From positions 1 through 55,000 of the forward strand of contig JAJDVY010000038.1 of assembly GCA_022825885.1 (NCBI GenBank): DNA of 55,000 nt, written 5' to 3'. The position numbers and the translations under genes are program-made. Below the pieces are notes generated by a model. It worked only from the letters and a program-made list of their open reading frames with translations. It was not told the origin of the DNA and did no database searches. Position 1 is the stretch's first letter. Each line of letters starts with the position of its first letter. This document shows positions 3,221 to 50,949 of this stretch, one piece after another. Source of the DNA: Nitrospirales bacterium. GTDB taxonomy: Bacteria > Nitrospirota > Nitrospiria > Nitrospirales > UBA8639.

Positions 3221-3280
3221 GGAAAGAGGCAACGAATCTTGTCAACGCCTGACCTGCCTGTCCTGAGCGTAGCTGAAGGA

Positions 3281-3380
3281 AGCGGAGCCGACGGACGCGG
3301 AGCCGAAGGAAGCGGAGCCGACGGACGCGGAGCCGAAGGAAGCGGAGCCGACGGACGCGAAGCCGAAGGAAGCGGAGCCG
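3281..3380. repeat. 30-bp tandem repeat, three full copies plus a partial one
   Basis: Copies start at 3281, 3311, 3341 and 3371 (partial). Each 30-bp unit consists of AGCGGAGCCG, ACGGACGCGG and AGCCGAAGGA, and the first three are nearly identical. The unit is itself built of related 10-15 bp blocks. There is no sign of translation; no start or ribosome site precedes it in any frame. Confidence 0.85.
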
Positions 3381-3419
3381 AAGAAACTCTCAATCAGCGA
3401 CCGACTACCTACAAAAAAC

Positions 3420-6385: not shown

Positions 6386-6507
6386 TCGGGTGAGGGGGAC
6401 AAAACAAAATAGCAGAATCGAATGAATTTTGCGAAGACCCGCGGCGGTTGCCCTCTCAGTTGCCGGGCCCGCGTTTTTCAGGATTGCATTTTTTGCAATA
6501 GACGAAG

Positions 6508-6592
6508 TTTTGTACATTTTGTAAGGTTTTGTACAAAATGTACAATTTGTACAAATTGTAACATTTGTAATAATTTGTAACTTTTGTACATT
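6508..6592. repeat. TTTGTA array, nine copies with about 9.25 bp period
   Basis: The core TGTA occurs at 6511, 6520, 6530, 6539, 6548, 6557, 6566, 6576 and 6585. It is usually preceded by TT and followed by CA or AA. The stretch is very AT-rich compared with its surroundings, contains several TGTACA palindromes and has no coding potential. It lies between the divergently oriented PEP mutase and restriction-modification genes. Confidence 0.8.
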
Positions 6593-48474: not shown

Positions 48475-49728
48475 TTATTCATCCCCAAGCATATGAACGA
48501 ATAGCCCGTCACGCAGCTTGGGCTCAAACCACGTGCTCTTGGGCGGCATGATGTCTTGGGCATCGGCAACGGCCATGAGTTCGTCAACAGTCGTGGGATA
48601 CAGCCAGAACGCAACGGCCCATTCTCCTGCATCCACCTTTGCGGCCAACGCGGTCGGTGGGTGGATCCCGCCGACGAAATCGATCCTGGAATCGGAGCGT
48701 TGGTCCGTAATCCCCAGCAGCGGGGTCAAGATACGTTCGGTGAGCACGGACACGGCCAACGCGTTCACCGGATGTTGTTCCATCCCGGCCCGTTGTTCCG
48801 GCGTCAATTTGGGATGCGCACGATGCCAATGGCCTTCCAGGTACAGATCAAACCCGGCTTCCGGTGTCTGCCCCGGTTCTGTCGTGGGTTGTAATTCATA
48901 GCCCACTCTCACTGATTCGAGAAATTGTTGCGGGGTATACCCGTTCAGATCCCGCACCACGCGGTTATAGGGGAGGATCTGCAATTCATCGTGAGGAAAA
49001 ATGACGCTCAAAAATCCTTCTTCGTGTTGTCGAGAGGGCTGTGCGGTGCCGGATGCGCGGGAAGCTCGCACCCGGCTGGCGGCCGCAGAGCGATGGTGCC
49101 CGTCGGCAATATACAACGCGTCGAGGTTCTTGAACTTTTCGACCATTGTTTCAATGGCTGCGTCGTCGCGTAGGCTCCAGACGGTGTGCTCCACACCGTC
49201 ATTTGCCGTGAACCGGCAGTCCGGTTCCATGGCCGTGACGTCCGCAAGCCAATCCTTGAATTGAGTCGTACGGCGAAAAAACAAGAGGACGGGTCCGGAT
49301 TGAGATTCGTGCGTTTCAATCACCCGTACACGGTCCATTTCCTTGACCGGCTTGGTGAGTTCGTGTTTCTTGATGATCCCGCGATCGTAGTCGTCGATCG
49401 AGGCCAGGGCAACGAGACCGGTTTGTTCGTGATCCCCCCACCGTTGTCGGTACACCCCGAATATGGGGCCGTCTTCCCGTACCAGGCTGCCGTCTTCGAG
49501 AAATTTCCGGAGGTTCGCGGCCCCTTTTTCGTAGACTTCCGTGGAATAGGGATCAACGCCGTCAGTCAATTCCAACTCGGCTCGCCCGATCCGAAGAAAA
49601 CAGTAAGGATTGCCGCCGGCAATGTTCCGTGCCTCGTCCAAGGAGACGACGTCGTAGGGGGGAGCCGCCACTTGGGCGGCGTGTTCCGGCTTGGGCCGTA
49701 CGGCGCGAAAAGGCATGATAGTTGCCAC
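48475..49728 (-). CDS. DUF1015 family protein
   Basis: The 417-residue protein starts MPFRAVRPKPEHAAQVAAPPYDVV four codons after the GTG and carries IADGHHRSAAA. This motif also occurs in ParB/SerK-like kinases. A DUF1015 role in serine phosphorylation or cofactor metabolism has been suggested by this resemblance but is not settled. GTG 49728 is preceded by AAAGGAG. A helically phased CATAGC array lies about 70 bases upstream. Confidence 0.85.
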   Translation of the reverse strand: MATIMPFRAVRPKPEHAAQVAAPPYDVVSLDEARNIAGGNPYCFLRIGRAELELTDGVDPYSTEVYEKGAANLRKFLEDGSLVREDGPIFGVYRQRWGDHEQTGLVALASIDDYDRGIIKKHELTKPVKEMDRVRVIETHESQSGPVLLFFRRTTQFKDWLADVTAMEPDCRFTANDGVEHTVWSLRDDAAIETMVEKFKNLDALYIADGHHRSAAASRVRASRASGTAQPSRQHEEGFLSVIFPHDELQILPYNRVVRDLNGYTPQQFLESVRVGYELQPTTEPGQTPEAGFDLYLEGHWHRAHPKLTPEQRAGMEQHPVNALAVSVLTERILTPLLGITDQRSDSRIDFVGGIHPPTALAAKVDAGEWAVAFWLYPTTVDELMAVADAQDIMPPKSTWFEPKLRDGLFVHMLGDE

Positions 49729-49797
49729 GAGTTCTCCTTTCTGCGTTGCTATGAAGAGCAGTCGTAGATGGGGCTAGTGTAGCATATCGGAGAATGG

Positions 49798-49939
49798 CAT
49801 AGCAGAACATAACAAAAACATAGCAATTCATAGCACTTTCATAGCAAAAACATAGCGCGACATAGCAGAATCATAGCAAGACATAGCAAGAACATAGCAG
49901 GTCATAGCAAACATAGCATGTTCATAGCAAAACATAGCA
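49798..49939. repeat. CATAGC array, 14 copies at helical spacing
   Basis: CATAGC (one copy CATAAC) starts at 49798, 49808, 49819, 49829, 49840, 49851, 49861, 49872, 49882, 49893, 49903, 49912, 49923 and 49933. Spacings are 9-11 bp, mean 10.4, matching one turn of B-DNA. An inverted copy (TGCTATG) lies at 49747-49753, in the leader of the DUF1015 gene. Linkers of three to five bases vary in sequence, so the motif rather than the unit is conserved. No coding potential is seen. Confidence 0.9.
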
Positions 49940-49977: not shown

Positions 49978-49994
49978 AATTCCGCATTTCTTCT

Positions 49995-50094
49995 GTCATC
50001 CCCGACCCCGATCGGGGATCCAGTGTCTTTGTTTTTTCCTGCGTTCGAAGAATAAAGACACTTGATTCCCGATTAAAAATGTCGGGAATGACAG
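49995..50094. repeat. Dispersed repeat family B, complete inverted pair
   Basis: The left arm (GTCATCCCCGA ... GGGGATCCAGTGTCTTT) and the right arm (AAAGACACTTGATTCCCG ... GTCGGGAATGAC) are inverted copies around a 22-base loop. Single arms occur at 3137-3179 and 6756-6795. This pair shows that the basic unit is an inverted-repeat element. Confidence 0.8.
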
Positions 50095-50139
50095 AGGGGA
50101 GGAGACCGTAAGTCGGGTTAGTCACAGGCGTCAATCGGC

Positions 50140-50949
50140 CTACTTGACGAACTCAAAATCAACCGGGAGTCGACCATTTGCACTAACGGTCACGCGTTGT
50201 TTTTTTGTGCCGAGAACCGGATGCCACGCCACCAGGGTGTAGTCGCCTGGGGGGACATGGCCGATCTCGAAATTTCCTGATTCACCCGAAATCGCGTAAT
50301 AGGGATTCTTGACCATATACAACCAATTTTCCATAAAGTCGTGACGATCACAAGTCAACACCACGGCGGAGGCGTGACGCAGCTTTTTTGCGGGAAAGAC
50401 TTTGTCCGTTTGTCCCTGGGCGCGAAGACTCTGGGTATGCATGGTTCTCATGATGTTGGCTTTACGGCCCTTTAACGAATACGTATGAAGGGTATGTTTG
50501 ATAGGGTCATGATTGACGAATCGGACGGGCTCATCAGCCCGAATCACGCCGGTGAACGGGCCGAAGCTGCATTTTTCGAGCTGAACGCCAAGGTTCATCG
50601 CGTGCCCGCCGGCATACTGAAATGCTCCGCGCCCCTGTCCCGTGGCTGTCTCGCGATGTGAGGGGAACGGTTTGCCCTTTTCCACGCCTTCCAGGGCGAT
50701 GACGACGCCTTGCACCCGGCCTTCGCGCACGACGAGTTTCGTCAGCACACGTTCCGGCCCGCACACCTCAGGCCCGTTCCTTACCTCAAAACGTCTTGGG
50801 ACGTGGGGAAGGGTGCCCGTGAACGCCACCTTCCCCGTAATGGTTGCCCCGTTCTTGACATCGACCACGTCGTAGGCAAACCCCACACCTGCGAACCCTG
50901 ACAAGGTGATGAGAGAGAACCAGGCTATTGGACAAATGCGGGGCCACAT
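50140..50949 (-). CDS. Exported protein with cupredoxin-like and carboxypeptidase-regulatory-like parts
   Basis: The 269-residue protein has a signal peptide (WFSLITLSGFAGVGFA) and starts its mature part YDVVDVKNGATITGKVAFTG. The middle contains MNLGVQLEKCSFGPF, HDPIKHTLHTYS and CDRHDFMENWLY, where Cys and His residues resemble a cupredoxin-like metal site. The end (GNFEIGHVPPGDYTLVAWHP) is a carboxypeptidase-regulatory-like beta-sandwich. It lies downstream of an outer-membrane protein gene and a His-rich gene. Metal handling in the envelope is inferred. Confidence 0.75.
   Translation of the reverse strand: MWPRICPIAWFSLITLSGFAGVGFAYDVVDVKNGATITGKVAFTGTLPHVPRRFEVRNGPEVCGPERVLTKLVVREGRVQGVVIALEGVEKGKPFPSHRETATGQGRGAFQYAGGHAMNLGVQLEKCSFGPFTGVIRADEPVRFVNHDPIKHTLHTYSLKGRKANIMRTMHTQSLRAQGQTDKVFPAKKLRHASAVVLTCDRHDFMENWLYMVKNPYYAISGESGNFEIGHVPPGDYTLVAWHPVLGTKKQRVTVSANGRLPVDFEFVK

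Follow-up and report, generated by a model that had tools for sequence, protein, structure and literature searches.

The window, that is the whole stretch of 55,000 nucleotides that was analysed, harbors an array of short direct repeats between two tandem genes (Table 1). One of these we take to be a DUF1015-family gene, following the name given in a preliminary description of the sequence; the other encodes a protein of 269 amino acids. Exact copies of the hexamer CATAGC start on the forward strand at positions 49798, 49819, 49829, 49840, 49851, 49861, 49872, 49882, 49893, 49903, 49912, 49923 and 49933. The preliminary description had counted fourteen CATAGC copies. Thirteen are exact, and the number of fourteen units is obtained if a degenerate CATAAC is included. 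With this unit the described spacing of 9-11 bp was reproduced across the 14 units, with a mean of (49933-49798)/13 = 10.4 bp. The whole window contains 23 CATAGC hexamers versus 10.3 expected, a number reached by none of 100 shuffles, and 13 of them are packed into 141 bp. Judging from its letters, a TGTAGCA that precedes the first exact copy by 20 bp, or two turns, is possibly a further degenerate unit. The DUF1015 leader also contains the inverted copy that had been described there. Inverted copies near an array end also occur elsewhere in the genus, for example CATAGCAGCACGCTATG at a site linked to thiC. A dispersed repeat (GTCATCCCCGAC..GATCGGGGATCCAGTGTC, positions 49994-50100) adjoins the array, and similar repeats are present in many of the stretches examined.

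Table 1. Positions of the array, its neighbours and the candidate binder gene.
Feature	Position	Strand	Remarks
DUF1015-family gene (presumed)	48475..49728	-	GTG start at 49728; array neighbour
Inverted CATAGC	49748..49753	-	in the DUF1015 gene leader, ~20 bp upstream of the GTG start
Putative extra degenerate unit TGTAGCA	49778..49784	+	inferred from sequence
CATAGC(A) array, 14 units (13 exact, 1 degenerate)	49798..49938	+	motif search, sequence
Degenerate unit CATAAC	49808-49813	+	fills the single 21-bp double gap
269-aa gene	50140..50949	-	far side of the array, in tandem with the DUF1015 gene
139-aa protein gene	G000:C31:670-1089		beside thiC; source genome, different contig

The single array noticed at first is real, but it is one among 15 sites in the source genome (G000, 2.38 Mb) at which CATAGC pairs occur at one-turn spacing. 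A triple-pattern search of this genome yielded 46 matches, versus none for the reversed control. Of 13 further genomes of the genus, eight also contain the triple pattern (G001, G003, G005, G006, G009, G011, G012 and G013), and a ninth, G004, contains one degenerate array that represents a decayed remnant. No arrays were detected in other genera of the order among 46 genomes searched. The source genome was placed by kinship with its relatives in the GTDB genus bin75, which corresponds to Ca. Nitrosymbion and originates mostly from marine sponges (PMC11812461). The genus comprises sponge-associated nitrite oxidisers.

The arrays contain 3 to 13 exact copies, and in a set with one array per site none is located inside a called gene, genes having been called by a simple longest-ORF script instead of a gene finder. 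The 22 sites with callable neighbours comprise 13 tandem, five divergent and four convergent gene pairs; within the tandem pairs the array has the strand of the genes in seven cases and the opposite one in six. Among the neighbours are ThiC, AIR carboxylase, a NuoF-like protein, arginine decarboxylase, HsdM, an RND transporter and a proton pyrophosphatase. A CATAGC array also adjoins the gene of a protein whose TIR-like domain is of the ThsB type (Pfam Thoeris ThsB; L026:1506-1922), and the gene of an HsdM-like methyltransferase with an N-terminal helix-turn-helix (L032:6116-7993) is separated by 54-65 bp from an array in which inverted copies also occur. No Rfam match was obtained on the arrays searched (the window, L030, L028, L026 and L048). 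An RNA leader element was rejected on this ground and because the arrays show no fixed orientation relative to the genes. A strict replication polarity was likewise rejected, as the array strand shows a weak GC-skew bias. GC skew on the array strand is positive at about 20 of 28 independent sites, and at 12 of the 15 sites of G005 (L274-L299) in windows of 20-40 kb; a weak replication polarity of the arrays is possible.

The DUF1015 site itself carries an array in G000, G003, G005 and G009, and is without one in eight of the 11 other genomes read. In three of the eight (G001, G012 and G013) a relative of the 269-aa gene directly abuts the DUF1015 gene with nothing arrayed between them. The remaining five (G004, G006, G007, G010 and G011) have an array-free gap at this site; in G011 the DUF1015 leader has close to it a stretch that strongly resembles the flank on the far side of the G000 array (GTAACCCGACAAT..), and the two are not separated by an array. 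Since the array is missing from most of these genomes and other arrays adjoin unrelated housekeeping genes, the specific link to DUF1015 drawn in the preliminary description was abandoned, and a DUF1015-specific operator was rejected as a general explanation. Relatives lacking an array at this place had been named in advance as a sign of neutral slippage; they exist for this position, but the statement does not extend to the array family as a whole.

The helical phase of the repeats is maintained throughout the family. Spacings in 75 arrays fall, with few exceptions, at 9-12, 19-22, 29-33 and 41-43 bp, and in most of the double gaps there is a degenerate unit, for example TATAGC, CATCGC or AATAGC. 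Phase statistics were calculated with one array per orthologous site, comprising 30 arrays and 277 copies, and coherence was maximal at 10.4-10.5 bp. The 60 skipped-turn gaps deviate from whole turns by a mean of 0.62 bp versus 2.61 bp expected. Successive spacings compensate each other (r = -0.47, 0 of 5000 shuffles, globally or within runs), and the spread increases less with distance than independent steps predict, the standard deviation at lag 8 being 1.43 versus 2.10 bp (all arrays).

A comparison of motif and linker divergence, as proposed at the outset, revealed a clear difference. In ungapped orthologous stretches (n = 25) changes occurred in 38 of 780 motif columns (4.9%) versus 293 of 1241 linker columns (23.6%). 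Gapped alignments gave 5.6% for the motif, 26.4% for linkers and 16.1% for flanks. Because gapped alignments of repeats can misregister and thereby inflate linker rates, the ungapped figures are safer, as is the clean pair of the window array and its counterpart in G005: with identical spacing, these differ at 0 of 84 motif, 4 of 57 linker and 18 of 210 flank positions. Across the genus 110 different linkers occur in 375 steps, in disagreement with the constant unit of a slippage repeat. The variation of the linkers that had been noted is real, but it is not free, as the first linker base is an A in 362 of the 375 cases and the remainder is A-rich. The real unit is therefore closer to CATAGCA followed by 2-5 variable bases. 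As a slippage control, 84,980 species genomes and viral contigs were scanned for the triple pattern. Among the matches listed, CATAGC repeats in other taxa mainly have constant or near-constant units. Among the cases read, a fixed motif with variable linkers is a feature of the bin75 genus. The initial view that motif and phase are conserved while linkers are not, which sets the arrays apart from iterated slippage, agrees with both the change rates and the phase statistics. A phage or plasmid origin was considered and rejected; 20 viral stretches fit the array pattern, but mostly as constant-unit repeats.

The array sites were also analyzed for a potential binding protein. A single site is common to all eight array-rich genomes, and there the array is positioned 38-62 bp from the start of a gene for a 139-aa protein next to thiC. 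This protein is intact in G000, G001, G003, G005, G006, G009, G012 and G013, which are exactly the genomes with at least three arrays. It is absent from G002, G004, G007, G008 and G011 (0-1 arrays each) and in G010 (no arrays) all that remains is a truncated match of 43 aa, located about 1.1 kb before thiC. G011 retains one fairly intact array despite the absence of the protein; its array and that of G004 are each located at a site shared with array-rich genomes. In a ThiC nucleotide tree, G006, which possesses both the protein and arrays, clusters with G004, G011 and G007, which lack the protein and have 0-1 arrays (support 84-86 for the relevant grouping, 61 for G011-G007). This suggests a joint loss of protein and arrays as the simplest reading. 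The match between presence of the protein and array number is suggestive and no proof, because the search for candidates was limited to neighbours of conserved arrays, the most conserved of which adjoins this gene, and because the 14 genomes compared are related and hence not independent data points; other genes could have the same genome distribution. A relative of the protein with 37% identity is encoded in G210, where no phased array was found upstream of its gene and no CATAGC pair in the genome. This shows that the protein family is not always accompanied by a CATAGC array. No match to the 139-aa protein was found in phages, plasmids or viral contigs. A TPP riboswitch is located between its gene and thiC, outside the array.

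An AlphaFold2 model of the 139-aa protein, built with 13 relatives, has a mean pLDDT of 77, whereas the eight close orthologues alone gave an unusable model (pLDDT 47). The model with 13 relatives predicts a helix at residues 3-36, a segment of low confidence at 51-57 and a winged helix at 70-133, where the predicted order of elements is H-H-H-E-E and block means of pLDDT are 78-89. VIA structure matches reached Z values of up to 8.7 for linker-histone domains and about 7-8 for Zalpha, Fur, forkhead and RNA polymerase delta. Overall, the matches of the model comprise linker-histone, RNA polymerase delta, forkhead and Fur/MarR winged helices, all of them weak, and Foldseek gave no match below E 0.05. 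The Pfam profile HARE-HTH (PF05066) matched over its full length in four orthologues with 17.0-21.6 bits, below the cut-off of 25.9, but not in distant relatives. Sequence searches of solved structures returned nothing but repeat-protein and coiled-coil noise. The model indicates that the protein likely has a common DNA-binding fold.

The pattern as a whole is best read as a cooperative protein-binding array. This part of the preliminary description is retained as an inference, but for a genus-wide set of sites instead of a single operator. In the reading preferred here, which we hold with belief and doubt in even balance, the window array is one member of a dispersed set of multivalent sites that present their units on one face of the DNA to a cooperative protein, probably the 139-aa winged-helix protein. 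Each CATAGCA unit would be one recognition site. With units one DNA turn (~10.45 bp) apart, a protein with some reach could bind every unit from the same side of the helix and polymerise cooperatively along the array; occupancy would depend on how many units an array has (3 to 13 exact copies). The 139-aa protein, the most likely binder, is predicted to consist of an N-terminal helix, which may plausibly serve dimerisation or oligomerisation, joined by a flexible linker to a winged helix at the C-terminus. The protein may tune its own gene via the array beside that gene and coat the remaining ones. Its overall role would then most likely be organisation, silencing or anchoring of the chromosome, in a nucleoid-associated or centromere-like manner, rather than control of each neighbour gene. 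A more specific form is put forward tentatively: a genus-specific system in which the winged-helix protein polymerises along one DNA face at about fifteen dispersed arrays, as a multi-site centromere or chromatin nucleator of the chromosome of a bacterial symbiont, the arrays decaying after loss of the protein.

The alternative that survives best, though we consider it unlikely, assumes the same kind of array but another sequence-specific binder, with the thiC-linked winged-helix gene as just one of its targets. The evidence from phase and motif names no binder, and the HsdM-like protein with its N-terminal helix-turn-helix is also encoded beside arrays, at a site present in five genomes only. 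However, the winged-helix gene tracks array number in 14 of 14 genomes and adjoins the only array site common to all eight array-rich ones. An improbable explanation is neutral slippage or a MITE-like dispersed repeat, which would have spread with short flanking arms and gained and lost units without function. It would accommodate that orthologous arrays differ by whole units, that several arrays of G000 share a left arm ending ..GCTTTGCGGAA, that all eight arm matches adjoin an array (in 1.12 Mb examined, much of it picked around arrays) and that other dispersed repeats occur in many array flanks. Slippage yields constant linkers, however, as in the other taxa among the matches listed, and neither a conserved motif with variable linkers nor compensating spacings and in-phase skipped turns are expected from it. 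Quite improbable, too, is a regulon in which the arrays are operators of the adjoining genes. The arrays are intergenic, and some lie about 50-150 bp from a start codon (DUF1015, a purE-like gene and the thiC-linked winged-helix gene), but the neighbours are functionally unrelated, arrays also occur between convergent genes and at 3' ends, and presence at the DUF1015 site differs between species. Selection for intrinsically curved DNA, with A-rich stretches phased at 10.5 bp, fits the A-rich linkers and TA steps that recur every ~10.45 bp but is scarcely credible, since curvature does not require an exact hexamer, whereas the conservation of CATAGC far exceeds that of the A-rich linkers.

Most iteron arrays known to have such geometry occur singly, as plasmid centromeres, origins or operators. 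Their role as plasmid centromeres is exemplified by type II parC/ParR, in which direct iterons about 10-11 bp apart each bind one ParR dimer, with formation of a superhelical complex and with autorepression (PMC5016525). The CATAGC arrays likewise consist of direct repeats about one helical turn apart (period 10.4-10.5 bp). Unlike parC they are dispersed over many chromosomal sites and have variable linkers, and no ParM-like gene was found among the part of the array neighbours scanned with Pfam. ParR has a ribbon-helix-helix fold, in contrast to the winged helix predicted for the candidate, a difference that applies only if the candidate is the binder. TubR of type III systems, a helix-turn-helix protein with a wing, binds a repeat array (tubC), and omega binds several separate parS sites of pSM19035 that differ in iteron number, on which the affinity depends (PMC5016525). 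The candidate is predicted to have a wing like TubR, and the multiple separate arrays of differing unit number resemble omega/parS, but no TubZ or delta partner was identified here, and the omega sites, unlike these, are plasmid-borne. H-NS nucleates at helically phased high-affinity sites, from which a bridging assembly forms cooperatively on bacterial chromatin (PMC5418058). The CATAGC sites are phased similarly, whereas H-NS sites do not present a strict hexamer every turn at fifteen loci, and the candidate is not H-NS-like. FoxP3, a forkhead winged-helix protein, multimerises on TnG repeats, a pairing of this fold with short-unit repeat DNA that the candidate would share. The structure matches of the candidate model include complexes of FoxP3 with repeats; however, FoxP3 is eukaryotic, the likeness of fold is weak and no relation by descent is shown. 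The candidate also weakly resembles HARE-HTH proteins (RNA polymerase delta, ASXL) in both profile, below the Pfam cut-off, and structure.

The pattern suggests that a bacterial chromosome may be coated or anchored in a manner not described before. If true, about fifteen arrays kept in helical phase by compensating spacings, with a candidate protein that tracks them across a genus, would amount to bacterial chromatin encoded in the sequence itself, an unusual situation. The idea is testable in vitro, since it involves a defined motif, a defined spacing rule and one small protein, even though the organisms are known here from metagenome-assembled genomes alone.

Other repeats were observed in the same genome. 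A second short-unit array in the window (6507-6590) consists of TTTGTA at a spacing of 9-10 bp, with a mean of about 9.3 bp that is off the B-DNA repeat. TTTGTA arrays are dispersed in G000 (C10, C13, C32 and C33) and also present in G004, G006, G007 and G009, a distribution that does not track the winged-helix gene. This family demonstrates that short-unit arrays can form in this genome without B-DNA phase, which was counted against the reading preferred here. Positions 3266-3383 of the window are occupied by 7.9 copies of a 15-bp tandem repeat, AGCGGAGCCGAAGGA.
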